A DNA stretch of 28,476 nucleotides, from IMG/VR virus record IMGVR_UViG_3300034062_000645, positions 1-28,476 of that record, one strand, 5' to 3'. The stretch is from a virus. The notes beneath the pieces are model-generated. The model was not told the origin of the DNA. It made no database searches and saw nothing but the letters and a program-made list of their open reading frames with translations. Below, one piece after another: positions 4,475-20,103 of the stretch. The translations under genes were made by a program, and so were the position numbers. The stretch's first letter is position 1, and each line of letters opens with the position of its first letter.

Positions 4475-4627
4475 GTGGATTTATTTGAAGTCCTATCCAA
4501 AGCATGGCCGATCCTGCTGGCGCTGATCACCCTGATTATCGTCTTGGCAAAGTTGGATTTGCGCGTGGCGGTACTGGAAGAGAAGATCAAGGCTTTATTT
4601 GAAATGTGGAATAGGCGGGACAAATGA
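4475..4627 (+). CDS. Small single-TM membrane protein with charged coiled-coil tail
   Basis: This 50-aa ORF starts with GTG at 4475, one base after the previous stop, and its stop overlaps the next gene as ATGA at 4624. No in-frame ATG exists upstream of the GTG. Residues 11-25 are strongly hydrophobic (WPILLALITLIIVLA). The rest is a charged amphipathic helix (RVAVLEEKIKALFEMWNRRDK). The topology is N-terminal anchor plus helix, the reverse of its 56-aa neighbour. The tight coupling on both sides argues that it is translated. It could be a small holin, an antiholin or a stunted inner-membrane spanin (the helix is too short for a normal Rz). No homologue is recognised with confidence. Confidence 0.55.
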   Translation: MDLFEVLSKAWPILLALITLIIVLAKLDLRVAVLEEKIKALFEMWNRRDK

Positions 4628-5082
4628 TTGACCTTACCAAAGCCATTGGAGCAGTCGCAGCCAGCATTGCAGCCATTGGCGGCGGGTACACGTTGGCAGA
4701 CAAGTTTGGGTGGTTTGACCGAGCTATCCTTGAGTGGTCACCAGAGCATTTTAAAATTGTGGCAGCGGCGGGGCAACCTATCAATGTGACAGTGGCCCGG
4801 ATCAAAAAGCGGGATGACTGCTCCGTGGAGAGTTTTACCCCCAGCATCCGTGACGCCGCAGGTATGGTGCATGAGGCAACGACTACGGCGAGCAAGTTCA
4901 GCGGCCCAGCAGGGCCAACAATTGACACGTTCACGTACCAACTCACGATGGTGAGAAAAGAGAAGATTGCGCCGGGTTCAGCTACATTGCTGGCAACGAT
5001 CAAGTACAAATGCCCGGAGGGTGAGCGTGTGGTTCAGTACCCCCGCCATGCAAACCTGAGTTTTGACCTAAAGGACAAATGA
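4624..5082 (+). CDS. Membrane-anchored lysis-cassette protein of unknown function
   Basis: This 152-aa protein has an N-terminal hydrophobic segment at about residues 7-24 (Ala/Gly-rich, reading AIGAVAASIAAIGGGYTLAD). A soluble, predominantly beta domain follows. Two cysteines, C66 (RDDCSVESF) and C130 (KYKCPEGE), could form a disulfide if the domain is periplasmic. There is no lipobox and no catalytic motif. Start ATG 4624 is coupled to the upstream gene by ATGA, and the end is coupled likewise to the holin-like gene. The position inside the lysis block suggests a role in envelope disruption or lysis regulation, for example in place of the Rz/Rz1 pair that I do not find. This is inference only. 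Confidence 0.5.
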   Translation: MIDLTKAIGAVAASIAAIGGGYTLADKFGWFDRAILEWSPEHFKIVAAAGQPINVTVARIKKRDDCSVESFTPSIRDAAGMVHEATTTASKFSGPAGPTIDTFTYQLTMVRKEKIAPGSATLLATIKYKCPEGERVVQYPRHANLSFDLKDK

Positions 5083-5567
5083 TGCTAACCCTACTCTCAT
5101 CGCTATTTGGTTTCCTTGCTGGCGGCTTGCCCAAGGTGCTTGGTTTTTTCCAAGACCGCGCAGACAAGACCCACGAACTCACGATGGCAAGGCTCCAGAC
5201 AGAGCGCGAACTGGAACTCCGCAAAGCTGGCTTTGAAGTCATGCAGCGGGTGGAGGAGATCAAGTTTGAGGGGCAGATGGTTGAAGCTGCATCAGCCGAG
5301 CGCAGCGCCCTGTACGCGCACGACATAGCCATTGGTCAAGGTGCAAGCCAGTGGGTGATCAATCTGCGGGCGGGCGTAAGGCCCAACATCACTTACGGTA
5401 TGTTCCTCCTGCTGGTGTTTGTTGAGGTGGCTGGATTTGCTTATGCATGGCATCACGCCGTAGATTTTCAGATCATGCTGAATAACCTTTGGGACGATGA
5501 AACGCAAACTATCTGGACGTTGATCATCAGTTTCTGGTTTGGAAGCCAAGCGTTCAGCAAGAAATGA
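5079..5567 (+). CDS. Holin, three-TM family (GTA_holin_3TM-like)
   Basis: This 162-aa protein probably forms the inner-membrane hole that releases or activates the endolysin. A first hydrophobic segment spans residues 3-23 (LTLLSSLFGFLAGGLPKVLG). A charged coiled coil occupies about 28-65, and two C-terminal TMs lie at about 104-124 and 143-158. The order and the motifs RAGVRPNITY, NLWDDETQTIW and SFWFGSQAFSKK match the three-TM holin family found in gene transfer agents and many proteobacterial phages. The lysozyme gene begins inside its stop codon (ATGA at 5564), which is the expected holin-endolysin order. Start ATG 5079 overlaps the preceding stop codon; a second ATG follows immediately. 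Confidence 0.8.
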   Translation: MMLTLLSSLFGFLAGGLPKVLGFFQDRADKTHELTMARLQTERELELRKAGFEVMQRVEEIKFEGQMVEAASAERSALYAHDIAIGQGASQWVINLRAGVRPNITYGMFLLLVFVEVAGFAYAWHHAVDFQIMLNNLWDDETQTIWTLIISFWFGSQAFSKK

Positions 5568-6040
5568 AAGTCTCTCAACGGTGCAAAGAGATGATCAAGC
5601 ACCATGAGGGGGTGCGATTTAAACCGTACCGCTGCCCAGCGCGGCTCTGGACTGTAGGAGTAGGCCATGTTTTATACCCCGATCAAGGTCGTTTACCTCT
5701 GGATCAAAGAGACGCTTACCCGCTTAAAGCGGAAGATAACCGCGTATTTTCAGGAGCCGAAGTAGATGGAATCCTTGGTGCTGATCTCCAGCGATTTGAA
5801 GTTGGGGTCGCCAAACTTTTTCCTGTGGTTCTTACCCAAGGCCAAAACGACGCTCTTGTCAGCTTTGCTTTTAATCTCGGTCTGGGCGGCGTACAGCGAT
5901 CAACCCTCCGTCAGAAGGTTCTTCGGGGAGAGGTTGAAGCGGCGGCAGACGAGTTCTTGAAGTTTACACGGGGCGGGGGTAAAATCCTACCGGGGCTAGT
6001 CAAGCGCAGAAACGACGAACGCGCTCTGTTCCTATCTTAG
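5564..6040 (+). CDS. Endolysin: GH24 lysozyme (N-acetylmuramidase)
   Basis: This 158-aa enzyme cleaves the MurNAc-GlcNAc bonds of peptidoglycan at the end of infection. The GH24 signature is complete: catalytic E15 in KHHEGVRFKPY, C24 eight residues on, and T30 in LWTVGVGH. That is the E-8-C-5-T variant of the T4 lysozyme E-D-T triad, seen in P21-type R endolysins. The C-terminal half carries DALVSFAFNLG and GLVKRRNDERALF, also typical of the family. No signal peptide or SAR anchor is present, so it should depend on the upstream holin to reach the wall. Its length matches phage lysozymes. Start ATG 5564 overlaps the holin stop. Confidence 0.92.
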   Translation: MKVSQRCKEMIKHHEGVRFKPYRCPARLWTVGVGHVLYPDQGRLPLDQRDAYPLKAEDNRVFSGAEVDGILGADLQRFEVGVAKLFPVVLTQGQNDALVSFAFNLGLGGVQRSTLRQKVLRGEVEAAADEFLKFTRGGGKILPGLVKRRNDERALFLS

Positions 6041-6049
6041 GATTGATCC

Positions 6050-8152
6050 ATGCCACTACAGAAAATTCAGCTCAAGCCGGGTGTAAACAGGGAAGGAACT
6101 CGTTACGCTAGAGAGGGCGGCTACTACGAGTCGGATAACGTCCGGTTTCGGCAAGGTACACCTGAAAAGATAGGCGGCTGGGTACGCATATCTGCTAACA
6201 CGTTCTTGGGCGTCTGCCGTTCCCTGTGGAACTGGGTCACCTTTAGTTACCAGAACCTGATTGGGGTTGGCACAAACCTCAAGTTCTACATACTTAATGG
6301 CGGTACTTACTACGACATCACCCCTACCCAGACTGTCCACACGCTAACCAACCCGTTTGCCACAGTCAACGGCTCAACTACGGTCACAGTCACGGACGCC
6401 ACGGGCGGTTACATCAACAATGATTTCGTGACGTTTACAGGTGCTACCGCAGTAGGTGGCATAACGATCTCTGGCGAGTATCAGATAGCCTATTCCGTTG
6501 GTACGACCTACACCATTACCGCAGCATCTGCGGCAACGTCTACAACTACAGGTGGCGGCACGGTCTATGCTGTTTATCAAATCAATACTGGCCCTGCTTA
6601 CGCTGTACCGTTGGTGGGCTGGGGTTCTGGCACTTGGGGTTCTGGTACTTGGGGCAACAGCGCCACTTCTTCGGACGCTATGCGGATATGGAACCAATTT
6701 AACTTTGGTGAAGACCTGATCTACGGCCCGAGGGGTGGGCCACTGTACTACTGGGATGCCACTATCGGCTACCAAGCGGCTACAGTTACCATGACAATTG
6801 CCAACCCCTGCGTTGTCACTTCTACTACTGTCCTTCCTGATCTGACAGCCATTGTGTTTGAAACCACTGGCGCACTGCCAACAGGTCTGCTGGTAGGCAC
6901 AACCTATTACACCCGGTTTGTGTCGTCTACCACATTCAACCTGTCGCTGACCCCCACAGGGGCGCTCATCATCACTACGGGCAGTCAGTCGGGTACGCAC
7001 ACGGTATCCCAGCGTGGAGTACTGGTATCACAGCTAAATGGGGCAAGCAGTGTTCCACTGACTCAAATAGCGTTCCTTGTCTCTGACGCAAGCCGTTTTG
7101 TGCTTTGCTTTGGAACCAACGACATTGGATCAACGTCAGTCAATCCACTCCTAATCCGGTGGTCTGACCAAGAAAGTGTTGTGGAGTGGTCGCCAGCAAT
7201 TACCAATCAGGCAGGTAGCATCACCCTGTCCCACGGCTCTACCATCGTGACAGCTATCCAGAGCAAGCAAGAGATTGTGGTGTTTACAGATGCTGCCCTT
7301 TATTCCCTTCAGTACCTTGGCCCACCGTATGTCTGGGGGTCACAGTTGTTGGCTGACAACACCTCTATTGCTGGCCCCAATGCGGTGGCTTTGGCAGCAG
7401 GGATTATTTATTGGATGGGCGTAGACAAGTTCTACAAGTACGACGGACGGCTGCAAACGCTCAACTGCGACTTGCTCAGGTATGTCTACAACGACATTGA
7501 TCGGAGCCAGTTTGAACAAGTATATGCAGCCACCAATGAAGGTTTCAGTGAAGTATGGTGGTTCTACCCCAGTAACGGTTCTACGACCAACGACAGCTAT
7601 GTGGTTTTCAACTACATAGAGAATGTCTGGTACTACGGCACTATGGCACGAACTGCATGGTTGGATAGCGGTCTTCAAGACTACCCGCTTGCAGCGACAT
7701 ACAACAACAATCTTGTCCAGCACGAACTGGGAGTAGATGACGGAACAACCGCCACGCTTGCTCCAATCAACGCATTCATCACCTCGTCCCAGTTTGATAT
7801 TGGCGACGGGCACGACTTTGCATTTGTCTGGAGGATGCTGCCAGACTTGACCTTTAATGGCTCCACTGACGGGACAACGCCTAGCTTGACCATGCAGCTT
7901 CTGCCTTTGCAAAACTCTGGCTCTGGTTTTAACAACCCCAAGTCAGTCGGTGGAACTAGCAGCAGCGCAGAGGGTACAGTCACAGCAACCCAGACCTACC
8001 CCATTGACCTAGACACTTACAACGGGCAGTTGAATATCCGGGTCAGGGCACGGCAGATGGCGATGAAGATCAGTTCCAACACCCTTGGCACTCAATGGCA
8101 GCTAGGCGCTCCAAGAATTGACATCCGCCAAGACGGCAGACGAGGCGGGTAA
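6050..8152 (+). CDS. Tail/DNA-stabilisation-like virion protein
   Basis: This 700-aa structural protein begins IQLKPGVNREGTRYAREGGY and continues with NVRFRQGTPEKIGGW. That N-terminal signature recurs in environmental podovirus proteins usually annotated as tail or packaged-DNA stabilisation (P22 gp10-like) proteins. The body has many beta strands and aromatic-rich blades (GVDKFYKYDGRLQTL, SEVWWFYP, YVVFNYIENVWYYG), suggesting a propeller-like tail hub or nozzle. Two small Thr-rich beta domains appear to be inserted at about residues 98-178 (NDFVTFTGATAVGGITISGE) and 243-320 (ETTGALPTGLLVGTTYYTRF). AGGA precedes ATG 6050. The C-terminal RIDIRQDGRRGG is basic. The structural assignment is fair; the exact position in the tail is inferred. 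Confidence 0.65.
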   Translation: MPLQKIQLKPGVNREGTRYAREGGYYESDNVRFRQGTPEKIGGWVRISANTFLGVCRSLWNWVTFSYQNLIGVGTNLKFYILNGGTYYDITPTQTVHTLTNPFATVNGSTTVTVTDATGGYINNDFVTFTGATAVGGITISGEYQIAYSVGTTYTITAASAATSTTTGGGTVYAVYQINTGPAYAVPLVGWGSGTWGSGTWGNSATSSDAMRIWNQFNFGEDLIYGPRGGPLYYWDATIGYQAATVTMTIANPCVVTSTTVLPDLTAIVFETTGALPTGLLVGTTYYTRFVSSTTFNLSLTPTGALIITTGSQSGTHTVSQRGVLVSQLNGASSVPLTQIAFLVSDASRFVLCFGTNDIGSTSVNPLLIRWSDQESVVEWSPAITNQAGSITLSHGSTIVTAIQSKQEIVVFTDAALYSLQYLGPPYVWGSQLLADNTSIAGPNAVALAAGIIYWMGVDKFYKYDGRLQTLNCDLLRYVYNDIDRSQFEQVYAATNEGFSEVWWFYPSNGSTTNDSYVVFNYIENVWYYGTMARTAWLDSGLQDYPLAATYNNNLVQHELGVDDGTTATLAPINAFITSSQFDIGDGHDFAFVWRMLPDLTFNGSTDGTTPSLTMQLLPLQNSGSGFNNPKSVGGTSSSAEGTVTATQTYPIDLDTYNGQLNIRVRARQMAMKISSNTLGTQWQLGAPRIDIRQDGRRGG

Positions 8153-8469
8153 TGGCACAAAAGAACGTAGTAGCCCCCCGGCTACCTAGCCCCCCGCAGG
8201 AGTATGACCCTGTTTACATGAACCAATTGTTGAGTTTGTTGCGGCTGTACTTCAACCAACTGGACAACGCTGGGCCAATGGCCGGGTCTACACAAACTAA
8301 CGGAACCGATGTAGTATCGGGCTTGAGCTTTTTTCCTACGTCTGGCACTTCCCCCAGCTTGCCGACGGATGCTGACTTCGCCAATTTAAGGATTGGGGAC
8401 GTTTACCGAGACACCACTACGGGTGCAACCATCAACAGCCAAGTGCTTAGAATAAAGACCGCATTATGA
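8152..8469 (+). CDS. Small phage structural-type protein, unknown
   Basis: This 105-aa protein is not assignable to a named family. It opens with a Pro-rich stretch (APRLPSPPQEYDPVY) leading into an amphipathic helix (MNQLLSLLRLYFNQLD). It ends with a short beta-type segment (NLRIGDVYRDTTTGATIN). The start overlaps the preceding stop as TAATG, and the end overlaps the next start as ATGA, so it is translated as part of the virion block. Small proteins of this shape occur between the stabilisation-like protein and the internal proteins in related phages. It may be a tail completion or adaptor part, but nothing in the sequence proves that. Confidence 0.55.
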   Translation: MAQKNVVAPRLPSPPQEYDPVYMNQLLSLLRLYFNQLDNAGPMAGSTQTNGTDVVSGLSFFPTSGTSPSLPTDADFANLRIGDVYRDTTTGATINSQVLRIKTAL

Positions 8470-9575
8470 GCCTCAGAAACGACCCCAACTATTTCCCCCA
8501 ACCCGATGTACCCACTAACGGTAACTACGGTAGTAATTTTGGCAAAGAACAGATGTACTACGGCTACTCGCCTAGTTCTGCAGCTATTGATGCAGCTAAT
8601 GCGGCGGCTGGAGAAAAAACCTACAGTAGCGGAAAGTACGTGTACAACCCAGCAACGGGTCAATACACATGGGTCCCCGCTGGTGCCGCTACTCCGACCC
8701 CGACAACTCCGACAACCCCAGTAACCACGCTAGAACCTCCCGGTGGTGCAGAGAACGGGCAAAGTCCGGGTCCGGGCGGCGGATACGGTATTCCCGGCGC
8801 TACTAACATCAATGGCGTTAGTGGACCAACTACGGGTTTAGCTTCGCTTGCAAATAGCGCAGCAGCTAGGCTCGGTAATATGAGCATAGACCCCATTACG
8901 GGGCAACAAAAACCCGGACTTTACGGTAGTGCGCTACGAGGCATCTCAGATGCACTTGCCAGAAACGTAGACCCAAGTTTTAGTCACGAGGGGCGTACAG
9001 GTCGTGGCGTAGGTTCCGTTGACATTGACGGCAAAACAGTTGATAAGACCGACTTAGGTTCTTTCAATATCGGGCCCACCGGTTTGACCGCAATAGACGC
9101 CCCCACGGCAGCGGAATCCCAAGCCCGTGCAGATGCTGTTTCAGGTGCTACGGCTGCTCCCATTGGCCCTGATAGTGGCCCATCAAGTGGTGCTGAAAGT
9201 GGTAGTGGTTATGGGGAGGGTCTTGGGGCAGGCTACGACAAAGCTAATGGCGGTGTAGTTGGGCGTTTTGCTCACGGTGGTCTAGGCTCCCTCGGCGGTT
9301 ACTCAGACGGTGGCAGGCTGCTGCGTGGGCCGGGTGATGGGGTGTCAGATAGCATCCCGGCAACTATTGGTAGAGCAAAAAAACCTGCGCGACTTGCCGA
9401 CGGGGAATTTGTGGTTCCTGCGCGTATCGTGTCCGAGCTAGGCAATGGGTCAACTGAAGCGGGTGCGCGTAAGCTGTATGCCATGCTTGCTCGTATTCAG
9501 GCAGGACGTAAAAAGTCTGTTGGTAGGGGCAAAGTAGCCGTTAACTCACGCATGGATAAACACCTGCCAGCATGA
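8466..9575 (+). CDS. Virion-type protein with GPGDGVSDSIPA / DGEFVVPA motif
   Basis: This 369-aa protein is rich in Gly, Pro, Ser and Thr and is probably largely disordered over residues 60-280. The conserved part is C-terminal: a Gly-rich run (GRFAHGGLGSLGGYSDGG), then GPGDGVSDSIPATIG from about residue 287, then ADGEFVVPARIVSELGNGST at about 311-330 and a basic helix. This module recurs at the ends of many phage tail and internal virion proteins and in some tape-measure proteins, but its role is unknown to me. Residues 65-95 are a Pro/Thr tract (TPTPTTPTTPVTTLEPPGG). Both ends overlap neighbours by ATGA. A virion location is inferred from context and motif. Confidence 0.55.
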   Translation: MSLRNDPNYFPQPDVPTNGNYGSNFGKEQMYYGYSPSSAAIDAANAAAGEKTYSSGKYVYNPATGQYTWVPAGAATPTPTTPTTPVTTLEPPGGAENGQSPGPGGGYGIPGATNINGVSGPTTGLASLANSAAARLGNMSIDPITGQQKPGLYGSALRGISDALARNVDPSFSHEGRTGRGVGSVDIDGKTVDKTDLGSFNIGPTGLTAIDAPTAAESQARADAVSGATAAPIGPDSGPSSGAESGSGYGEGLGAGYDKANGGVVGRFAHGGLGSLGGYSDGGRLLRGPGDGVSDSIPATIGRAKKPARLADGEFVVPARIVSELGNGSTEAGARKLYAMLARIQAGRKKSVGRGKVAVNSRMDKHLPA

Positions 9576-9979
9576 AAATACAGTATGTCGCCTCAGAGTG
9601 GGTGAACTATACTTGGGACAAGGTTGAGGGGTTTATATCCGATGCGTTGGCTCATTCCAATGGGGACTACACAGTAACGCATGCTAAGGTATTCGTAACC
9701 CAAGGTAAGTGGGCACTGATCGTCGCGGTTGATGATTCTGGTGTTATCCACGGTGCAGCGACAGTTGAGTTTTTCAATCGCCCTAATGATCGGGTTGCAT
9801 TTATTACCGCTATAGGCGGTAAGCTAGTAAGCAATGAGGATACGTTTGAGCAACTACGGGCCTATGCAAGGTCTATGGGTGCTACGGCTATCGAAGGTGC
9901 TGCTAGGGAATCAATTGCTAGGCTGTGGCAACGCTACGGCTTTAAAGAAAAATACCGTATTGTTGGGGTAAAGCTATGA
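9572..9979 (+). CDS. GNAT-fold acetyltransferase-like protein, probably degenerate
   Basis: This 135-aa protein has the overall layout of a GNAT domain. An N-terminal helix is followed by strands (WALIVAVDDSGVIHGAATVEF), a central strand AFITAIGGK, then the typical ending EQLRAYARSMGATAIEGAAR and IARLWQRYGFKEKYRIVGVKL. The usual acetyl-CoA loop (Q/RxxGxG/A) is not visible after the central strand, where GGKLVSNEDT stands instead. Catalysis is therefore doubtful and a structural role is possible. GNAT-like small proteins are commonly found just before the internal virion proteins of podoviruses. ATGA overlaps on both sides. A second GNAT domain, with an intact loop, is embedded in the giant protein downstream. 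Confidence 0.65.
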   Translation: MKIQYVASEWVNYTWDKVEGFISDALAHSNGDYTVTHAKVFVTQGKWALIVAVDDSGVIHGAATVEFFNRPNDRVAFITAIGGKLVSNEDTFEQLRAYARSMGATAIEGAARESIARLWQRYGFKEKYRIVGVKL

Positions 9980-12900
9980 ATATTTTGGACCTGAAACGCA
10001 AGCTGATGCCGTTGAACGGCTTTATGGGCGGCGGTTCCCCTGCTTCTTCAAGTGGCACATCGACTACGGGTTTACCCGACTGGGCTAAAGGCTATGCGCA
10101 AGACACGTTAGCCAAACAAGCCGCGCTTGCAGCCCGACCCTACGAAGCCTATGGGGCTAACCGTATTCAAGGTTTTGACCCCATGCAGGTACAAGCGCAG
10201 GACCAAGCTGCGAACATGAAAACCTCCCCCCTTACAGCGCAAGCGGCGGGTATAGCTGGGGACATCGCTAATAAAGCCAAATCGGCCTCTTATTCTCCGA
10301 GTGAATTTGGCAGTCAGTTTTCTGCGCCAAATCCATATGGGGCTAGCGCGTTTAGCAATCAGTTTTCTGCACCAGATAAATATACATCTAGCAACTTTGA
10401 CTACAACCAAGTTAATTCTCCAACCCTTACTGCCTATCAAATGCAAGGGCCAGCGGATGTGTTCGGCCAAAAAACTTCTGCTGCCCAGTTGCAAAAGGCT
10501 CCCGAAGTCTCCGCTGCCCAGTTGCAAGGACCCGAGCGTACAAGTTTTGAACGCGCTGAGGCCGAACGAATCCAAGCGTTGCCCTTGCGCGATTTGCAAA
10601 TGCAGGCTGCAGGGGATATTTCAGCAGAACGTATCGGCACAAATAGTTTTACCCAACCCGGCACTGCCGATGCCTACATGTCACCGTACATGCAGAGTGT
10701 CGTCGATATACAAAAGCGAGAGGCTGCACGGCAATCGGGGATTCAAGGAACGCAGCAGCAAGCACAGGCTGCTCAAGCGGGGGCTTTTGGCGGTTCGCGG
10801 GACGCTATCATGCGTGCAGAGCGGGAGCGAAATCTTGCTCAACAGATGGGGGATATACAAGCTACGGGGTCACAAGCAGGTTTTCAAAACGCACAGCAAC
10901 AGTTCAATGCAGAGCAAGCAGCACGACTTCAGGCAGCACAGGCTAACCAACAAACAGGTCTTACTGCTGCGCAGGCAAATCAAGGGGTTCAGCAACAAGC
11001 GGGACTTCAAAACCTAAGCGCTGGACTGCAGACGCAAGGGCTTCAAGCGCAAACAGGGCTTCAAGCCCAGCAATCTAATCAGCAGACCGGGCTGCAGGCG
11101 TTGTTAGCAAATCAACAAGCTGGTATGCAAACGGGGCAGTTCAATTCTCAGATGGGCTACAACACCAATCTGCAAAATGCTCAGTTGGCGCAACAAGCGG
11201 CACTGTCAAACCAATCGCTAAAAGGGCAGTATGGTCTGCAGCAAGGGCAGTTTAACCAAGCCGCATCAATGCAAGACGCTCAGTTGGCGCAACAAGCGGC
11301 ACTGGCAAACCAGCAAGCCGGTTTGACCGTAGGACAACAAAATCTCGCGGCTAACCTACAAACACAGCAGCTTGGTTCTGGACAAAGTATGCAGGCACAA
11401 CTTGCCAATCAGCAGGCGGGTTTAACTGCGCAACAAGCAGCGGAGCAGTCTAGGCAGTTTGGTGCTAATCAAGGTATGACTAGCGCTCAGATGGCCGCTC
11501 AGTACGGACTAGCTGGGCAACAAGCAGCGGAGCAGTCTAAGCAGTTTGGTGCTAATCAAGGTATGACTAGCGCTCAGATGGCCGCTCAGTACGGACTAGC
11601 TGGGCAGCAAGCAGCGGAGCAGTCTAAGCAGTTTGGTGCAAACTACGGCATGCAAGGACTTCAGACAGGTCTGACTGCCTCAGGGCAGTTGGGTGGTTTG
11701 GGTGCACAGCAGTTCCAGCAAGGTATGGATGTCAATCAGTTACAAGCTGCCTACGGTGCGCAGAAACAAGCTATGGGGCAGCAGGGGCTGAATCAAGCGT
11801 ACCAAGACTATCAGAACCAGCGGGAGTACCCGCAGCAACAGTTGAGCAACATGGCTAACATGATGCGTGGCCTTCCGATTGGCAGCACCACTAATTACAC
11901 CGGCACTCAAAATCCGGGTTCACCATCGTTTGGTCAGATGTTAGGTTCCGCAGGCTCTGCTGCTTGGGGTCTGAAACAATTCTTTGCTGATGGCGGTAGT
12001 GTTGATAGCCAACAGAACATTGAGTCCATCGTATCCAAGTTGTCAGATCAACAGTTGACTCAGGCTGAAGAAGCGGCGAAAGCCCGTGGGGATCAAGAGC
12101 AACTGCAGGCCATTCAAATGGAGAAAGCTGCCCGTGCCTCTATGCAGCGTGGTCTTGGCGCTATGCCCGTAAACATGGACGAGATGCTGCCGACTGAACA
12201 GAGCATGGCCCGTGGCGGCATCGTTGCTTTTAATGGGGCCAGCGGTAGCGATGTTTCTGGGGGTGATGGCGAAGAAGATGAAACTAATGCTCCCGCCCAA
12301 GGTCCGGGCAATCCGGTGGTGTACAACGAAGCACTCCAAAACCAACTGGCGCAAATAAAGGCTCTTGCTGGCTTTAAGTACAAGTCTATGGACCCGGAAG
12401 AGTACGACCGACGTATTGAAGCTCGGAGGGCTTCTTTGCTCAAAGGGGCTGGAGAAACCCCCTACGCAGGTATGCGTGAAGACGTTAAGCGCATGGAAGA
12501 AGACAGCGCCAAGAATCTAAAGGAGGGTAGGGGCCTAGCGGCACTCCAAGCTGCTGCAGCTATGCTCGAAGGCAATAGTTTTTCCCGTGCTGTGGGGGCA
12601 GGGGTTAGTACGTTTGCTGGTGCTTATAGTGCAGCAGCTAAAGCTAGCCGAGCAGAAAAAGATGCGCGGCAACGGAAGTTGGAAAACATTGCTGATGCCG
12701 AGCGCAAAGAAAGAATGGGTCTCAATACAGCCGCTATTGCCGCTGCAGATCAAGCGCGGAAAGACCACCAAGACGAACAAAAAGCCGGAGCTGAAAAAAT
12801 TAAGAATATGGGCGTGCTGTATAGCGGACTTGCTCGCTCTGCTAAACCCGGTGCTGTTAAAGCCCCAACACCTCCTAAGGCTGCTGAATTGGCTATCCAG

Positions 12901-13401
12901 TCTGCGGTTAAGACTCGTATGGCTAGAGAGAAGCCAAAGGGGGATGAGACTCCTGAGATGATGCAGGACCGAATTACTTCCGAAGAGTCTAATCGTGTGT
13001 TAGCCATGCAGCAGCAGAGGCAGATTTTTAGCATGGCGGATATAGGTGGGACAAGTGCCGCGCTCAAAGGTGAGTCACAGGACACCACTAAACAAAAATA
13101 CGCTAGCGAAGCAGCGGCTAAAGCACGAAAAGACGTATCAATAACTATACCGTTTATAAATGCTTCCGACCCAGTTAGAGCACAGATGTTGGCGGACGCA
13201 GAAAGTAAAGCGTACGCTGGTTACAACTTGAAACCCCCCCAAACCACCCCTGCTCTCGCTGCCCCCGCTAAAGCTGCCGCTGCTCCTGCTAAAACTGTGC
13301 CAGCTTCTCAAATCCCTGCGGGGACTACGTTTGGAAAAGCTGTACCCGGAAAAGGAACTGAAGTTCTCAAGGATGGTAAAGTTATAGGCTACGCAAACTA
13401 A
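9976..13401 (+). CDS. Large Gln/Ala-rich repeat protein, likely internal virion protein
   Basis: This 1141-aa protein starts with a Gly/Ser linker and LPDWAKGYAQDTLAKQAALA. The middle (about residues 250-640) is an extreme Gln/Ala/Asn-rich repeat region with units such as NQQAGL, AQLAQQAAL and QAAEQSKQFGANQGMTSAQM, likely forming long helices or coiled coils. Residues 670-680 (FADGGSVDSQQN) and 744-752 (MARGGIVAF) carry a Gly-rich motif frequent in virion-internal proteins of environmental phages. Charged helices follow, and the C-terminus is Ala/Pro-rich with a short KDGKVIGYAN end. It sits between a GNAT-like gene and the giant polyvalent gene. An internal or ejected virion protein is the best reading; a fibrous or tape-like role is the alternative. 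Confidence 0.6.
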   Translation: MNILDLKRKLMPLNGFMGGGSPASSSGTSTTGLPDWAKGYAQDTLAKQAALAARPYEAYGANRIQGFDPMQVQAQDQAANMKTSPLTAQAAGIAGDIANKAKSASYSPSEFGSQFSAPNPYGASAFSNQFSAPDKYTSSNFDYNQVNSPTLTAYQMQGPADVFGQKTSAAQLQKAPEVSAAQLQGPERTSFERAEAERIQALPLRDLQMQAAGDISAERIGTNSFTQPGTADAYMSPYMQSVVDIQKREAARQSGIQGTQQQAQAAQAGAFGGSRDAIMRAERERNLAQQMGDIQATGSQAGFQNAQQQFNAEQAARLQAAQANQQTGLTAAQANQGVQQQAGLQNLSAGLQTQGLQAQTGLQAQQSNQQTGLQALLANQQAGMQTGQFNSQMGYNTNLQNAQLAQQAALSNQSLKGQYGLQQGQFNQAASMQDAQLAQQAALANQQAGLTVGQQNLAANLQTQQLGSGQSMQAQLANQQAGLTAQQAAEQSRQFGANQGMTSAQMAAQYGLAGQQAAEQSKQFGANQGMTSAQMAAQYGLAGQQAAEQSKQFGANYGMQGLQTGLTASGQLGGLGAQQFQQGMDVNQLQAAYGAQKQAMGQQGLNQAYQDYQNQREYPQQQLSNMANMMRGLPIGSTTNYTGTQNPGSPSFGQMLGSAGSAAWGLKQFFADGGSVDSQQNIESIVSKLSDQQLTQAEEAAKARGDQEQLQAIQMEKAARASMQRGLGAMPVNMDEMLPTEQSMARGGIVAFNGASGSDVSGGDGEEDETNAPAQGPGNPVVYNEALQNQLAQIKALAGFKYKSMDPEEYDRRIEARRASLLKGAGETPYAGMREDVKRMEEDSAKNLKEGRGLAALQAAAAMLEGNSFSRAVGAGVSTFAGAYSAAAKASRAEKDARQRKLENIADAERKERMGLNTAAIAAADQARKDHQDEQKAGAEKIKNMGVLYSGLARSAKPGAVKAPTPPKAAELAIQSAVKTRMAREKPKGDETPEMMQDRITSEESNRVLAMQQQRQIFSMADIGGTSAALKGESQDTTKQKYASEAAAKARKDVSITIPFINASDPVRAQMLADAESKAYAGYNLKPPQTTPALAAPAKAAAAPAKTVPASQIPAGTTFGKAVPGKGTEVLKDGKVIGYAN
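11434..11640 (+). repeat. 87-bp tandem repeat, about 2.4 copies
   Basis: Copies start at 11434, 11521 and 11608 (the last is partial). Each begins CAAGCAGCGGAGCAGTCTA and encodes 29 residues starting QAAEQSKQFGANQGM and ending QYGLAGQ. The two full copies differ at very few bases (for example TCTAGG versus TCTAAG, and the final Gln codon CAA versus CAG), so the duplication is recent. The repeat keeps the reading frame and extends the Gln/Ala-rich region. Confidence 0.9.
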
Positions 13402-13412
13402 CTAGGTACGGT

Positions 13413-16400
13413 ATGGCTCAGAAATTCACTTCTTTTACGCCGCTAGAAGAAGCAGCGCCTACATTTACCACGTTTACACCCATAGAGGAGCCAGAAACAG
13501 GGAGAGCGCAGGGCTTATCTGCGCTCTTCCCATCCGTTATGCGTGGTGGTCGGGGCCTTGTGTCTCTGGGTGGTGATGTACTTCCAGCTATGGTCGGCAA
13601 AGCATTTGGCGCAAACGAGTACGCCACAAAGCAAATGCAGGAGGCTGCGGCTTACAATAAAGAAACCGAAGAGCGTTATCCCGCCGCTGTTGGCTCGTAC
13701 AAAAACGTCAAGGACATTGGTACTGGGTTTACTTACGTAGTTGAAGCCGTAGGCGAAGCTATCCCGTCGCTCATCCCGAGTTTGTTTACTGGTGGCGTTG
13801 CGGGCATAGCAGGACGCAGTGCAGTGGCTGCTGCTAAACTGGCTGCAGAAAAAGCTGCTGTGGCCCAAGCGGCCAAGGGTGCTACCGCAGAGGTAGTAAA
13901 AGACGCTGCCATGAAGGCGGGCGTGGCTGCGGCTAACAAGGTAGCCCTAAAGTACCAAGCGGTTGGTGCTGTCGCTGGCTCCGCTGCCCAGAACGTACCT
14001 GATGTTTTCCAGAACATCTACGAGAAGACCGGCAAGATGGACTTGGGTACCGCCATTGTGGCGGGCGGGTTTAATGCTGCGCTGGATGCAGTGCTGCCCG
14101 TTATGCTGCTGCGCAAAGCTAATATAGGGGGCATACCGTCGGAGGCAATTGCTGCAGCTTGGTACAAGCGCATGGGTAAGGGCGCGGCGGTGGGGTTTGC
14201 AACCGAGGGTGGTACCGAGGCTGTTCAGGAGATGTCGAGTGCTGCGGCTGAAAAGTTTGTAGACAACAACCTCAACTTCTTCACCGAGAAAAACTTTGAG
14301 CGGTTTATTGATGCGGGCCTAAAAGGCGGCATCGGTGGTGGGGCTATTACAAGTGCTACAGATGTCGTAACCGGTAAAGGGCCGGAGAAAAAAACTCCTG
14401 AGCCAAAAGGCTTTACCTCGTTCACACCGATTACTCCTGCTACCACACCCACCACACCCACTGAAAAACAACAGGCTCGGCAGGATGCAGTTGCGCAGCG
14501 TGCACAGCAGCTTGAGGAGCAGAGCGGTATTACCGCTGATGATGCTGTCCGTATTGCCGAGGATGACATTGCCGCCGAGGAAGCCAAGATTGCTGGGTTG
14601 ACTGCATTCAATGCACCGAAGGTTGAGCAGGCTGTTAGTGGCGCGGAGATGGAACGAGAGTCGCCAGTAAAGATTCGTGCTACTGAGCTTATTGACGCGG
14701 GGATGGACCCCCAGACTGCGTACGCAACAGCCCAGCAGCAAGTGCAGGAGGGGGTAGAAAACGATGTCCTCGCAGGAGAAGAAGGTGCCAGAGATGTTAC
14801 AGGACCTAAACTTACAACAAGTAGAAAGCGCACTGCAGTGGTTAGCAAACCCATTGCAAGAGCCCCCGCCGCAGGACCTGCAGCACCTACAGGAGTTGGA
14901 GTGGTTCCTCCTGCAGAGGATGTTGGACTCTCTGATGTGGGAGAAACGACTCAACCCGCTGCAGTAGCTGAAGCCCCCACGGAACAAACCGACGACACTG
15001 CATTTGTACCCCCTGCCGACGCAGTAGCAACGGAACCCAAACCCGCAGCAGCGCCAAAGGTAGCTAAGGTATCAAAAGCAGCCAAGGAAATGCCGCCCCA
15101 GTTGGTTGATTTAACTGTAGCCCAAGCCGCGACTGACCCTGCGGAGATGCAAAAGCACCTTGCCGACATAAAAGCAGAGTACGATACGTTTCTAAGTACA
15201 AACGGTAGCCGCCCCAAAAAAGATACAGACAGGCGCGTGCGCTTTGATGCGCTTAACACTGCGTTCCGAGAACTGAAGGCAAAGTTAGAGCCAGCGGTTG
15301 CCGAAGCCCCAGTAGCCGAAGCCCCAGTAGCCGAAGCCCCAGTAGCCGAAGCCCCAGTAGCCGAAGCCCCAGTAGCCGAAGCCCCGGTAGCCGAAGCCCC
15401 AGTAGCCGAAGCCCCAGTAGCCGAAGCCCCGGTAGTTGAAACCACCACTGCCCCCGCAGAGAAAAAACAACCTGTGGTGTACGAAAAGGGTGCATACATA
15501 CCACCGGATGAAAAAGGTGGAGACCCTAGAGCATCGGCAGGATTTAAGGTACTAGACGAAGATAACGATCTTTCGGAGAACCTAGCTGGTGCTACGCTCA
15601 TAACCGGTATGAACACCGCAAGTAGAAATGCTGGCGATGGGTCTAGGCTGCTTAAAAGCATCACCGATTGGGCCGACAATAACGGCACAACACTGGCACT
15701 TGTACCCGCTGCGTCTCCCGATGCTGAGCTAGGCGGGTTGTCCCAAGAACAGTTGAAAGACTGGTATGCGCGGAATGGGTTTGAGGACCGCGCAGATTAC
15801 ATGGTGCGGGAACCCGCTGGCAAAAAAGCCGAAGCCCCAGTAGCCGAAGCCCCAGTAGCCGAAGCCCCAGTAGCCGAAGCCCCAGTAGTTGAAGCTCCAG
15901 TAGCCAAAGCCAAAAAACCTGATAGCTGGGCGGATTTTGTAGACGACATATCAAAAGAAGTTGACCGAGAGCTTGCTATTGAGCAACCAGAGTACGAGGG
16001 GTATGAGCGTGAACTGCATCTCAGTAAGAGTGCGTATACGCAAGCTAAGGGCACGTCCACAATTACCCCCTTACTCAATGCTGAGCTTGCAGAGGAGCGA
16101 CAAAAGCGCCGTGCGCGGTTAGAGACTTCAGCCGAAGCGTACAAAAAAGAAAAATCGGAACGGGCCACCAAAAGAGAAATTGCAGAAGCTGCGGAAACAA
16201 AACCCACCGAAGAAACTAAAAAGCGGGCTGGTGCGGTGGATGTTGTGGAGAGATCATTAGAGATTGTTGGTGCTCTCCAAGAAGTAGCTGGGTCTACAAG
16301 TTTTCCTGTGGGCACAAGAACAAACGCAAGGAAGTACTTAGCTGAAATTGCTCGGGCTAACAGCGAAAACGAAGCCCCAGAAGGCAGCTTGGAACCAGCG

Positions 16401-19400
16401 TTCCTTTTCCTAACAGACCTAGCCAGCAAACCCCGGTTCATAAGAACTGGCAGTAACAAGTCGCTTCCGTCTATTGGCAAGGCAAAGGTTCAGTCGATAG
16501 TAGACCTAGTGGCTTCCCGGTGGGGTAATGCTCCTACTGTGGTGATTGCGGACAACATCAACGATGCAGTGGTGCCCGCTGAGCTACAAAAAGCCGACGC
16601 GGACGCCAAAGCTAAGGGGGCTACTGGTGTACCTGCCGGTGTGTTCTACAAAGGTAATGTCTACATCTTTGCTGACCAGATGAAAACGGCAGAGGAAACA
16701 GTACGCACTCTTCTGCACGAATCCCTTGGGCACTATGGCTTGCGCGGTACATTCGGGGAAGACCTGAAACCAATCTTGCAGCTTGTGGCAAAGAACTTCA
16801 AGACGGAAATGGATGCGCTAGCCACAAAATACGGCCTTGATCTTAGTGTTGAGAAAGACGTACTAGAGGCTGCGGAAGAGGTTCTGGCTAACCTAGCACA
16901 GACAAAGCCAACTGTGGGTGTGGTGCAACGGGCGATTGCTGCAGTGCGCAGGTTCCTCCGCAAGATTGGCGTGGACGTAAAGCTGTCTAACAAAGACCTG
17001 ATCGCCAACTACATCATGCCCGCCCGTGCCTTTGTTGAGAACCGGCGCATTGAACGTGCGATTGGTGGGAAACCGGGATTTAGCCGTACCACCGAAGAAG
17101 CAGAGAACCTGACTCCAGAGCAATCCAAGGTGTTGGAGGATACTGTACGTACTCAGGAAGAAATTGATAAGGCTGTAGCTAAAGCAAAGTTCAAGTTCGA
17201 GGAGTCTGCCAAGGCGCAGAAAGCAGCCAAGGGTGTGTCGGTCTTGCAGATGGCTACGAACCCCCGCAAAGTCATTCCAGCGATGCGGGACCTGTGGAAA
17301 CGCGCTACGTCAGCGCAACGCAACCTGCTTGTAAAAATCCCACCGACCAGCTTCTTGACGGATTGGGTTGGCAATGCTGTGCCTGAGCTTCAGAATACGT
17401 ACAAGCTGATGCAGCGTATGGGTGGCATGACTGAACAACTACTGAACGCTGCGGGTGAACTGACTACCGAAGTACAGCGAGCATTTCAAGCAGACCCAAC
17501 CCTACGCGGCAAGCTGGACGAGCTAACGTCTGTGGCTACGCTGGCAGAGGTGGACCCCGGAATGATTGATACCGCTGAGCGCAGTAATGTACTGGACAAA
17601 GCGTGGAAAGACTTGGGGTCAGAAGGTCAGCGCGTGTACAAGCGTATTCGGGATCACTTCGATGTGCTGTCCAAGTACCTGTCCAAGTTGTTGGACGATC
17701 AGGTCAACTCGCTGAGCATTGATGCGGAAGCCAAAGCCAACATCATGAAGAAGATCAGGGCTACTTTCGAGAAAGGTAGTCGGATCAACCCCTACTTCCC
17801 ACTGGTGCGGGAAGGTGACTTTTGGTTGTCTATGGGCTCTGGCGAAACCCGTACGTTCTTCATGGCTGAGACGGCAGCGGAGCGGGATAGAGCGGCCCGA
17901 GAGTTTGCTACGGAGAAGATCAAACGAGGTGCTAATGAGTCAGAGGCAGCGTTCGAGAAGCGCGTTGACGAGAAGCTGGATGAACTTGAGAAAGACCGTG
18001 AGTTTGAGATGGGGGATGACATTTCGTCCCTACGTTCAAAAACGTACTCTCAAGGCGAGGGCAAAATGCTCACCGGGGTGTTTGACGCAATTGACAGCAC
18101 AAACTTCACCGACCCTGAAGCTGCCGGTATTCTAAAAGACGCTATCTACCAGACCTTTCTGGAGACCATGCCTGATCAGATTTTCCGCAAGCAGTTCATA
18201 CACCGTAAGGGGGTCGCTGGTTTCCGGGTCGATGTGCTGCAGAACACGGCGCATCTATCTGCGCGTATGGCTACTCAGCTTGCCCGAATCAAATACTCCC
18301 CACTGCTCCGCAATTCGCTGTCGGCAGCAAAAGACTCTATCCGGGGTCGCCGAGCGTTCGAGCCGTTCGTAGCCGAGATGGCGTCACGGGTGGACTCTGC
18401 TCTTGCGCCTAAGGCAAAATCGGTAGGCGCAGCCGTGGCTGGTGGTCTTAACAAGGCGGCGTTCATCTACTACCTTAGCGGTGCGTCCTCCGCATTGCTG
18501 CAGCCTCTGAGCCTTTTCCAGACTGGTATGCCGGTGCTGGCTCGTTACGGTGCATTCAAAGCTACCCGCGAGATGGGGCGAATGCTCAAGGTGTGGTCGC
18601 AGTTTGGTGTGTACAAAACCAATGCCGATGGGTCTAAATCTTGGGTTGCCCCGTCGATACTGAACGCTAAGGACACAACCGCGATAGAACGCAAGGCGTA
18701 CCGGGCAGCGGCAGAGCTAGGGCTATTTACCTCTACACAGGCTTCCTCCGTGTTTGAGTACAAGGCTACGCCGACCGACGAACTGAAAGGCCCCAAAGAG
18801 AAACTTGCTCGGGGTACTGTGGATGCCCTAGTGCTTGGTGGTTTGATGAACTCGTCAGAGCGTATGTCCCGCGAGGCTATGTTCATGACCTCGTTCCGAC
18901 TCAATATGGAGCAGCATGGGGACTTTACCCGTGCGGTCAGTCAAGCAACGTACGACACCAACGAAGCCTTGGGTGACTACGGCGAGAGCAATCGCCCTGC
19001 ATTCATGAAGAACTCGGTGGGCAAGGTGCTGACTCAGTTCATGATGTATCCCCTGCACGTAACGATGTTCCTACTCAAGAACTTTAAGGAGATGGTCAAG
19101 CCCATGAATGGCCGGTCTCGCGCAGAGGCTAGCTACAAGTTCTTTGGCACCTTGGGCACTACGTATGTTCTGGCAGGTGCTACTGGCTTGCCTATGTTCA
19201 GCACTGTCATGGGACTACTCGGCGCAGCATGGGAAGAGTTGAAGGACGACGATTGGGATGAGGACATGCGGGCTCTGGGCTTTGAGGCATGGTTTACGAG
19301 CAAGTGGCTGCATGACCAACTAGGAGAAACCAAAATTGGTGATGTCTCGCTGTCAGACTTGTTGTTGCGCGGCCCTGTCAATGCGTTTACTGGAGTAGAC

Positions 19401-20075
19401 ATAGCTGGCCGCACCGGCATGAACAACCTCTGGACTCGTGAGAGCAAGGAGGAAAAAACCATCCGCGAAAGCGCTACAGCTTTTGCACTGGAGAAAGCTG
19501 GCCCTGCGGCAAACATGATTTTGTCTGTGGCTGATGGTGTTGACGCCGCTATGCAGGGGGATTACGCTAAGGCTGTTAAGAAGTGGGCACCTGCTGGCTT
19601 CCGAAACTTTATCAATGCACATGAGCTTGCTACAGAAGGTGCAAAGGATAACAAGGGTGCGCAAATAATGACCACGGATGCGTTTAGCACGGGTGAACTC
19701 ATAGCGCAGACGATAGGCTTCCGGTCTGACCTACTTGCGAATACGCAGTACACGGCGTTCAAAGTTATCGGGGCTCAACAGAAGATAGCCAACGAGCAGA
19801 TCAAACTCCTTGAGAATCTAGATAGGGAGTTCCGAAACAATAACGCTGCTGGGTACAGTAAGCAGTTTAACAAGATAGCCGACTTCAACAGGCGCTACCC
19901 TAGCTTTGCAATGGATTTGGATCAGATAGGTAACTCGCTTGAGGCGCGTATGGAGCGCCGTGGCACCGCGTACATGGGTGTTGTGCCAACCGAGAAGAAC
20001 CTAGTATTGTTGGATGCGTTGAGGCATTCCGGTCGACGGGTGGCAGAAGCTGAACGCAAAGGCAGAGAGCCATAA
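13413..20075 (+). CDS. Giant polyvalent virion protein: GNAT, HExxGH metallopeptidase, PLxRFG-like
   Basis: This 2220-aa multidomain protein is probably packaged and injected with the DNA. In order: FT(S/T)FTP motifs at 5-10, 18-23 and 334-339; Ala-rich hydrophobic helices at about 105-310; low-complexity linker; APVAE array at about 627-676; GNAT domain at about 685-805 with acetyl-CoA loop R738-x-x-G741-x-G743 and ending DWYARNGFED; second APVAE array to about 833. A metallopeptidase-like domain follows with H1102-E1103-S-L-G-H1107 and candidate third ligand E1155 or E1156. Next come YFPLVREGDFWL (1461-1472), which resembles the PLxRFG signature of polyvalent proteins, and a long helical C-terminus with membrane-active stretches (about 1680-1720 and 1910-1940). 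The domains are visible; function during host entry is inferred from known polyvalent proteins. Confidence 0.75.
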   Translation: MAQKFTSFTPLEEAAPTFTTFTPIEEPETGRAQGLSALFPSVMRGGRGLVSLGGDVLPAMVGKAFGANEYATKQMQEAAAYNKETEERYPAAVGSYKNVKDIGTGFTYVVEAVGEAIPSLIPSLFTGGVAGIAGRSAVAAAKLAAEKAAVAQAAKGATAEVVKDAAMKAGVAAANKVALKYQAVGAVAGSAAQNVPDVFQNIYEKTGKMDLGTAIVAGGFNAALDAVLPVMLLRKANIGGIPSEAIAAAWYKRMGKGAAVGFATEGGTEAVQEMSSAAAEKFVDNNLNFFTEKNFERFIDAGLKGGIGGGAITSATDVVTGKGPEKKTPEPKGFTSFTPITPATTPTTPTEKQQARQDAVAQRAQQLEEQSGITADDAVRIAEDDIAAEEAKIAGLTAFNAPKVEQAVSGAEMERESPVKIRATELIDAGMDPQTAYATAQQQVQEGVENDVLAGEEGARDVTGPKLTTSRKRTAVVSKPIARAPAAGPAAPTGVGVVPPAEDVGLSDVGETTQPAAVAEAPTEQTDDTAFVPPADAVATEPKPAAAPKVAKVSKAAKEMPPQLVDLTVAQAATDPAEMQKHLADIKAEYDTFLSTNGSRPKKDTDRRVRFDALNTAFRELKAKLEPAVAEAPVAEAPVAEAPVAEAPVAEAPVAEAPVAEAPVAEAPVAEAPVVETTTAPAEKKQPVVYEKGAYIPPDEKGGDPRASAGFKVLDEDNDLSENLAGATLITGMNTASRNAGDGSRLLKSITDWADNNGTTLALVPAASPDAELGGLSQEQLKDWYARNGFEDRADYMVREPAGKKAEAPVAEAPVAEAPVAEAPVVEAPVAKAKKPDSWADFVDDISKEVDRELAIEQPEYEGYERELHLSKSAYTQAKGTSTITPLLNAELAEERQKRRARLETSAEAYKKEKSERATKREIAEAAETKPTEETKKRAGAVDVVERSLEIVGALQEVAGSTSFPVGTRTNARKYLAEIARANSENEAPEGSLEPAFLFLTDLASKPRFIRTGSNKSLPSIGKAKVQSIVDLVASRWGNAPTVVIADNINDAVVPAELQKADADAKAKGATGVPAGVFYKGNVYIFADQMKTAEETVRTLLHESLGHYGLRGTFGEDLKPILQLVAKNFKTEMDALATKYGLDLSVEKDVLEAAEEVLANLAQTKPTVGVVQRAIAAVRRFLRKIGVDVKLSNKDLIANYIMPARAFVENRRIERAIGGKPGFSRTTEEAENLTPEQSKVLEDTVRTQEEIDKAVAKAKFKFEESAKAQKAAKGVSVLQMATNPRKVIPAMRDLWKRATSAQRNLLVKIPPTSFLTDWVGNAVPELQNTYKLMQRMGGMTEQLLNAAGELTTEVQRAFQADPTLRGKLDELTSVATLAEVDPGMIDTAERSNVLDKAWKDLGSEGQRVYKRIRDHFDVLSKYLSKLLDDQVNSLSIDAEAKANIMKKIRATFEKGSRINPYFPLVREGDFWLSMGSGETRTFFMAETAAERDRAAREFATEKIKRGANESEAAFEKRVDEKLDELEKDREFEMGDDISSLRSKTYSQGEGKMLTGVFDAIDSTNFTDPEAAGILKDAIYQTFLETMPDQIFRKQFIHRKGVAGFRVDVLQNTAHLSARMATQLARIKYSPLLRNSLSAAKDSIRGRRAFEPFVAEMASRVDSALAPKAKSVGAAVAGGLNKAAFIYYLSGASSALLQPLSLFQTGMPVLARYGAFKATREMGRMLKVWSQFGVYKTNADGSKSWVAPSILNAKDTTAIERKAYRAAAELGLFTSTQASSVFEYKATPTDELKGPKEKLARGTVDALVLGGLMNSSERMSREAMFMTSFRLNMEQHGDFTRAVSQATYDTNEALGDYGESNRPAFMKNSVGKVLTQFMMYPLHVTMFLLKNFKEMVKPMNGRSRAEASYKFFGTLGTTYVLAGATGLPMFSTVMGLLGAAWEELKDDDWDEDMRALGFEAWFTSKWLHDQLGETKIGDVSLSDLLLRGPVNAFTGVDIAGRTGMNNLWTRESKEEKTIRESATAFALEKAGPAANMILSVADGVDAAMQGDYAKAVKKWAPAGFRNFINAHELATEGAKDNKGAQIMTTDAFSTGELIAQTIGFRSDLLANTQYTAFKVIGAQQKIANEQIKLLENLDREFRNNNAAGYSKQFNKIADFNRRYPSFAMDLDQIGNSLEARMERRGTAYMGVVPTEKNLVLLDALRHSGRRVAEAERKGREP
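15291..15440 (+). repeat. 15-bp minisatellite array 1 (APVAE codons)
   Basis: About ten tandem units of CCAGTAGCCGAAGCC (15 nt, encoding PVAEA). The first unit varies (PAVAEA) and the last becomes PVVE. Most units are identical in DNA; one or two have CCGGTAG. A number divisible by three keeps every copy in frame, giving an extended, acidic, proline-spaced linker just before the embedded GNAT domain. Confidence 0.95.
15829..15912 (+). repeat. 15-bp minisatellite array 2 (APVAE codons)
   Basis: Five to six units of the same 15-nt element found at 15291-15440, ending in variants PVVEA and PVAKA. It lies just behind the embedded GNAT domain, so identical repeats in the same orientation bracket that domain at a distance of about 390 nt. 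Confidence 0.92.
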
Positions 20076-20100
20076 AAAAACCCCCGGTGAAGACCGGGGG
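20074..20100 (-). terminator. Intrinsic terminator for the minus-strand replication operon
   Basis: A perfect 8-bp stem, CCCCCGGT (20081-20088) and ACCGGGGG (20093-20100), encloses a GAAG loop. On the minus strand the stem is followed by seven T residues (plus-strand A run 20074-20080), which is the classic intrinsic terminator. On the plus strand no T run follows, so plus-strand termination here would be weaker. The T-tract touches the TAA (20073-20075) of the giant plus-strand gene. A second small hairpin, GGCGG/CCGCC at 20104-20118, lies directly before it in the minus direction. Confidence 0.85.
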
Positions 20101-20103
20101 TAA

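Follow-up and report, generated by a model that had tools for sequence, protein, structure and literature searches.

Polyvalent proteins, a class described in 2017 by Iyer et al. (PMC5512222), are large multidomain chains presumed to travel inside the virus particle and to enter the cell with its DNA. That work already lists GNATs next to ARTs, HEXXXH zincins and LPD39 among their parts. The HEXXXH zincin motif was described there as well; the experimental lead for these zincins, as summarised by the same authors, is the processing of their own protein, exemplified by P1 DdrB, and action of some of them on host proteins is allowed. Among giant phage proteins, P1 DarB is a very large head-packaged protein whose first 30 residues are enough to direct it to the capsid (PMC9024508), and a DarB-like giant protein (gp69) was found in the virion of JC1 with 51 peptides (PMC9144972). 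The acetyltransferase AcrVA5 acetylates Cas12a and inactivates it (PMC9114340, PMC10799925), and a protein with an AcrVA5-like fold and no detectable sequence similarity was shown to inhibit Cas12a too.

Here we analysed a 28,476-bp virus record (the window, i.e. the whole stretch of DNA studied), which encodes a 2220-aa protein that is a further member of this class. With the polyvalent proteins of PMC5512222 it shares a large multidomain chain, a GNAT, an HEXXXH zincin-type domain, a weak LPD39-like stretch and, in sister proteins, an ART, but the methylase-helicase pair was not found in it by Pfam and PHROGs. In the sections of that paper covered here we found no description of its exact domain mix, its empty ART slot or its repeated terminal motif.

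A giant gene in a late operon of virion genes

13413..20075, + strand: CDS of the 2220-aa polyvalent (PLxRFG-type) protein; open frame, relatives under purifying selection
6050..8152, + strand: virion structural protein (phrog_3287, PHROG match), same late operon as the giant gene
9572..9979, + strand: 135-aa protein with a GNAT-like reading lacking the RxxGxG loop; positional match to a small acyltransferase gene of cultured phages
9976..13401, + strand: 1141-aa repetitive protein rich in Gln and Ala, immediately upstream of the giant gene, noted by position only
20080..20101, - strand: terminator-like hairpin between convergent operons, from the sequence

The ORF at 13413-20075 starts with ATG and runs uninterrupted for 2220 aa, and identical or near-identical copies are carried by other IMG/VR contigs. 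Against near relatives, dN/dS was 0.04-0.19 in all modules of the protein; synonymous changes thus dominate, marking the ORF as a real gene. It belongs to a right-going series of late genes encoding tail-fibre proteins, a tail-fibre assembly protein, an endolysin (5564-6040), the virion structural protein and the 1141-aa protein, and a left-going block comprises primase/helicase, helicase and exonuclease genes. The giant gene is therefore found in the company of virion genes (virion structural, tail fibre and endolysin), and its chain holds more than one unrelated activity (GNAT, zincin-type, PLxRFG), as in polyvalent proteins.

Gene order around the giant gene is broadly similar in cultured phages. 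Several cultured relatives have lysis genes directly downstream of it, unlike the window, where the endolysin and neighbouring small genes (4624-6040) lie upstream. The preliminary description called the genome lytic-looking; a 28-kb fragment gives little basis for that judgement, and integrases are present in several of the cultured relatives examined. A 646-aa tail-fibre/virion protein at 1877-3817 strongly matches DUF7483 (7e-104) in two stretches. Upstream of their giant gene, at a place similar to 9572-9979, cultured phages carry a small gene annotated as an acyltransferase (phrog_4470); homology of the 135-aa protein to these acyltransferases was undetectable, and this assignment was dropped. 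The 1141-aa protein has no family match in Pfam or PHROGs and is, by its position, a possible partner of the giant protein. In three relatives (L019, L023 and L029; L-numbers label the relatives' loci), this upstream neighbour diverges more than the giant protein itself.

An embedded AcrVA5-like acetyltransferase

15459..15827, + strand: minimal GNAT acetyltransferase cassette, AcrVA5-like (aa 683-805); alignment, AlphaFold model, PDB profile and fold matches
15300..15435, + strand: 15-bp direct (tandem) repeats for an AEAPV linker that precedes the GNAT, from the sequence
15828..15911, + strand: 15-bp direct (tandem) repeats for an AEAPV linker that follows the GNAT, from the sequence

Flanked by these linkers, aa 683-805 contain both the acetyl-CoA loop R738-N-A-G741-D-G743 (RNAGDG) and a WY(784/785)ARNGF motif, with G741, L747, D755, W784, Y785, R787, N788, G789 and F790 invariant in 18 relatives. 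This bears out the embedded acetyltransferase with an intact acetyl-CoA loop that a preliminary description of the locus had proposed; the GNAT fold at 685-805, on which that proposal depended, was recovered in an AlphaFold model (pLDDT 77, pTM 0.68) that matches PDB GNATs in a fold search. The cassette so combines the two marks of the GNAT superfamily, the R/QxxGxG/A acetyl-CoA loop and the GNAT fold. Pfam GNAT models scored below cut-off in embedded relatives and above it in a solo relative (L036), and a GNAT scan of genome contigs found no relative.

When a broad family profile of 18 rows (A4) was compared with the PDB, the sole significant match was AcrVA5 (6IUF, E 1.9e-5), the next GNAT being at 0.19. 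The same entry ranked top in the fold search (1.2e-4; runner-up 2.3e-3) and again came first, at a non-significant E of 0.43, with a close-family profile of the five nearest rows (A1). AcrVA5 is a minimal GNAT like the window's cassette, with about 19% identity between them, but AcrVA5 is small and stands alone (its chain in 6IUF has 96 residues), whereas the window GNAT is embedded in a giant chain. The literature searched yielded no joint mention of AcrVA5 and ‘polyvalent’. Resting on profile and model comparisons, the likeness may be taken as a lead, a pointer to function.

A zincin-type domain with a conserved glutamate pair

16482..17063, + strand: HExxxH zincin-type domain (aa 1024-1217); phrog_14770 at 1e-30, predicted topology
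16716..16733, + strand: HESLGH with H1102, E1103 and H1107; both His and the Glu conserved in 12/12 aligned relatives
16875..16880, + strand: Glu pair E1155/E1156, candidate third metal ligand; A-E-E invariant in 12/12 aligned relatives

The zinc-peptidase-like motif noted earlier, with a Glu pair 48-49 residues after H1107, proved to be conserved, and HESLGH (1102-1107) is of the HExxxH and not the HExxH form. E1155/E1156 are kept as far out as Vibrio phage proteins, whose identity is low. The predicted topology of aa 1024-1217 (helix, strand, helix, two strands, the HExxxH helix and a later helix with the Glu pair) fits a zincin; the HExxxH and a downstream helix Glu, following a three-stranded sheet, are the features of the HEXXXH-type polyvalent zincins. 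A PDB sequence search with the domain returned no match, and a fold search with a 1200-aa model (aa 1021-2220; pLDDT 60, poor outside the zincin) returned no significant PDB match, solved zincins included.

A constant PLxRFG C-terminus shared with giants of cultured phages

17295..17747, + strand: LPD39-like region (aa 1295-1445); below the Pfam cut-off here, above it in several relatives
17790..19991, + strand: PLxRFG domain (aa 1460-2193, NCBIfam NF032893); profile match, PHROG ‘DarB-like antirestriction’ family
17799..17816, + strand: the PLxRFG motif itself, PLVREG in the window (aa 1463-1468), by alignment

NF032893 matched aa 1460-2193 with an E of 6e-97 and 325.7 bits against a cut-off of 100. 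The PLxRFG-like segment reported in the preliminary description was thus real, but the range given for it, 1380-1620, needed correction, as the domain lies mostly downstream. Pfam recovered LPD39 alone, below cut-off (25.8 bits against 27; 27.5-71.4 in several relatives), plus an Extensin match that falls on the AEAPV repeats and was discarded as spurious. The PLxRFG region gave a poor predicted model without a fold match in the PDB.

This C-terminal domain of ~740 aa is shared with the PLxRFG (NF032893, ‘tail-700’) giants of Skulduggery, Parlo, SopranoGao, POI1126 and other cultured phages. As in the window, a GNAT of this family precedes the PLxRFG domain closely in the giants of Skulduggery and Parlo, and a match to this family was also found inside the PLxRFG protein of ZX1. 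Unlike the window protein, these giants are mostly 3000-5000 aa long and bear methylase, helicase or transglycosylase annotations; the best matches are only 22-28% identical to it. The preliminary description had regarded the order of effectors as special. This was not upheld: many relatives, some of them from cultured phages, have this GNAT family and these zincin types too, and such domains are among those listed in PMC5512222.

The PHROG label ‘DarB-like antirestriction’ arises from the shared C-terminus. No adenine methylase and SNF2 helicase domains, the hallmark of DarB, were detected in the window protein by Pfam, PHROGs or NCBIfam; P1 DarB, likewise very large and packaged in the head with an N-terminal capsid-targeting signal (PMC9024508), is comparable in type, but it is a methylase-helicase that matched neither PLxRFG nor GNAT nor zincin and shows no apparent tandem motif at its N-terminus. 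Neither JC1 gp69 nor P1 DarB significantly matched the PLxRFG profile, so both are parallels of type and not close homologues, and JC1 gp69 was rejected as a direct homologue.

Enzyme modules behave as exchangeable cassettes

13530..14402, + strand: Ala-rich helical module at the N-terminus (aa 40-330), swapped among backbones; identity comparisons with L029 and L048
17079..17087, + strand: FSR junction (aa 1223-1225), an empty ART slot; relatives carry ART-PolyVal here between FSR (or FMR)/FSR copies

A total of 277 related stretches were retrieved from IMG/VR and the best 80 kept. Among these best 80 of 277, the C-terminus is constant and the front variable, with GNAT, ART, GHKL and HExxxH/HExxH modules in varied mixes. 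The N-terminal module of L029 is 64% identical to that of the window and its C-terminus 27%, while L048 has a C-terminus 71% identical and no detected N-terminal module. The window's GNAT is 65-70% identical to those of proteins whose C-termini are 22-40% identical, and in L031 the relation is reversed (GNAT 44% versus C-terminus 57%). An AU test of the GNAT against the backbone clade gave p=0.068 on a short alignment, by which the backbone clade was not formally rejected; this is suggestive of GNAT exchange, strong constraint on the GNAT being the alternative. Exchange of the N-terminal module and of the ART is independent of this test. At the level of sequence, these comparisons show the enzyme modules as cassettes swapped among relatives. 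As to the Ala-rich membrane-type helices described earlier, the Ala-rich helical module (aa 40-330) stands, and its membrane type is weakly supported, three hydropathy peaks exceeding 1.2 along the protein (at 116, 215 and 1919).

An ART-PolyVal domain (PF18760) occurs in L005 (there below the PF18760 cut-off), L006, L044, L045, L047 and L048, exactly between the zincin and the C-terminus and bordered by FSR (or FMR) at one end and FSR at the other. In the window, L004, L008, L042 and L046 the ART is absent and a single FSR/FMR is left. A general role for FSR, as protease or border motif, was considered and rejected as a rule, since within the subfamily it is almost confined to the surroundings of the ART slot. 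The cassettes of L005, L006, L044 and L047 have near-identical first and last stretches and very different cores and lengths, as if substrate specificity were exchanged within fixed ends. A GHKL-type ATPase module is found in L009, L031 and many other relatives among the best 80 of 277. In L009 (aa ~1235-1420) and L031 (aa ~1270-1460), this GHKL (Hsp90/TopoVI-like) ATPase is followed by a second HExxH motif (HELAH), inside PLxRFG giants.

A repeated motif at the protein termini

13425..13451, + strand: tag copy 1, FTSFTPLEE (aa 5-13); tandem motif, p=0.003, 300 shuffles
13464..13490, + strand: tag copy 2, FTTFTPIEE (aa 18-26); tandem motif
14412..14435, + strand: internal tag copy, FTSFTPIT (aa 334-341), where the N-terminal module ends, from the sequence

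The protein starts with MAQK-FTSFTPLEE-AAPT-FTTFTPIEE, a tandem motif whose p of 0.003 is the minimum possible with 300 shuffles. Significant tandem 8-mer matches (p<0.01 by shuffling) were obtained for 29 of 53 distinct complete N-termini of relatives, with ~0.5 expected and 24 lacking a significant doublet; a few of the 29 are of low complexity and near relatives share motifs, so that the independent cases are fewer. The motifs are diverse, e.g. GPWDQY, APWEQ, NPFAKF, NFFEQF, KEFTLEEA, WTPPADA and GRDLSAEL. None of 10 giant proteins of cultured phages tested had a tandem N-terminal motif at p<0.01.

In L019 (ORF 6853-14400), L023 (6727-14421) and L029 (7036-14418) the motif also lies at or near the C-terminal end, as ENPFAKFAQ* in L019 and as GPWNKYK.. 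and GPWNKYKAAQ* (GPWxxY) in L023 and L029, respectively. Although the C-terminal regions of these three share 81% identity, the class of the motif switches at both ends together. The same motifs were not found in other genes of the relatives' loci examined, leaving a cargo tag shared across genes unsupported. In our analysis, a loading or docking tag would be the simplest reading of the terminal motif and is the leading guess, favoured because P1 DarB has its capsid-targeting signal within the first 30 residues.

A putative virion-loaded carrier and its alternatives

The observed domains, with intact-looking GNAT and metal motifs, the purifying selection, the module exchange and the repeated motif are best read together as a polyvalent effector carrier that is loaded into the virion and whose payloads can be swapped, a reading we hold to be probable, if only just. 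Accordingly described in its putative course, the giant protein would be made late in infection together with head and tail proteins, loaded into the particle by the aromatic N-terminal motif copies, and enter the cell with the DNA at infection, with the PLxRFG domain possibly serving as the constant carrier or translocation part; delivery at entry we infer from gene order and from the virion presence of the more distant same-type proteins of JC1 and P1. The HExxxH zincin would then cut a chain, most likely its own, releasing the modules joined by AEAPV and Pro-rich linkers, and the minimal GNAT, once freed, may acetylate a protein of the host, most probably one that works against the phage early on. 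The payload would be tuned by cassette exchange, as suggested by the ART slot, empty here and filled in sisters.

The preliminary description rightly recognised a polyvalent protein carrying a GNAT, a zincin-type and a PLxRFG domain, to which the neighbourhood of virion genes can be added, but took both enzymes as host-directed, with the GNAT acetylating and the zincin cleaving different host proteins at entry. This we think unlikely: both active-site motifs do look intact and conserved and host targets are allowed for some polyvalent zincins, yet the lead from P1 DdrB is self-processing (PMC5512222 for both points), and zincin-type motifs are retained by almost every relative whose front is full-length, regardless of payload, so that housekeeping processing fits better than a target-specific effector. 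Overall, self-processing appears at least as likely as host cleavage.

That the window protein is mainly a structural ejection protein, like those of T7 and P22, its enzyme-like domains being passengers or relics, would agree with the constancy of the PLxRFG domain and with the late-operon position, but is rather improbable given that the GNAT and zincin catalytic residues are invariant in distant relatives, that dN/dS stays low against near ones in every module and that modules are exchanged intact; the low-confidence model, weak evidence in this respect, gave no structural match to ejection proteins. Least probable to us is a non-virion protein acting late inside the cell, e.g. against superinfecting phages. 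Packaging of a 2220-aa protein is not readable from sequence alone, which leaves room for it, but the gene order with virion proteins and the same-type giant proteins in the virions of JC1 and P1 point to the virion-loaded carrier instead.

A bolder extension of the carrier reading, in which the giants are interchangeable delivery vehicles, the aromatic motif a phage-specific loading tag and the AcrVA5-like GNAT a ready-made anti-defence enzyme, seems to us doubtful as a whole. In it, the motif copies, N-terminal, within linkers and in some proteins at the extreme C-terminus, would dock the giants in the particle, and the GNAT brought in by the virion would disable CRISPR or another immune protein before phage gene expression. 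If virion-borne AcrVA5-type acetyltransferases exist, immunity could be blocked at entry and not after inhibitor synthesis, and the GNAT domain described here is a directly testable candidate for such a virion-borne anti-immunity acetyltransferase. The terminal motif, with its class-switching at both ends of close relatives, may in turn offer a route to the loader of giant effectors.
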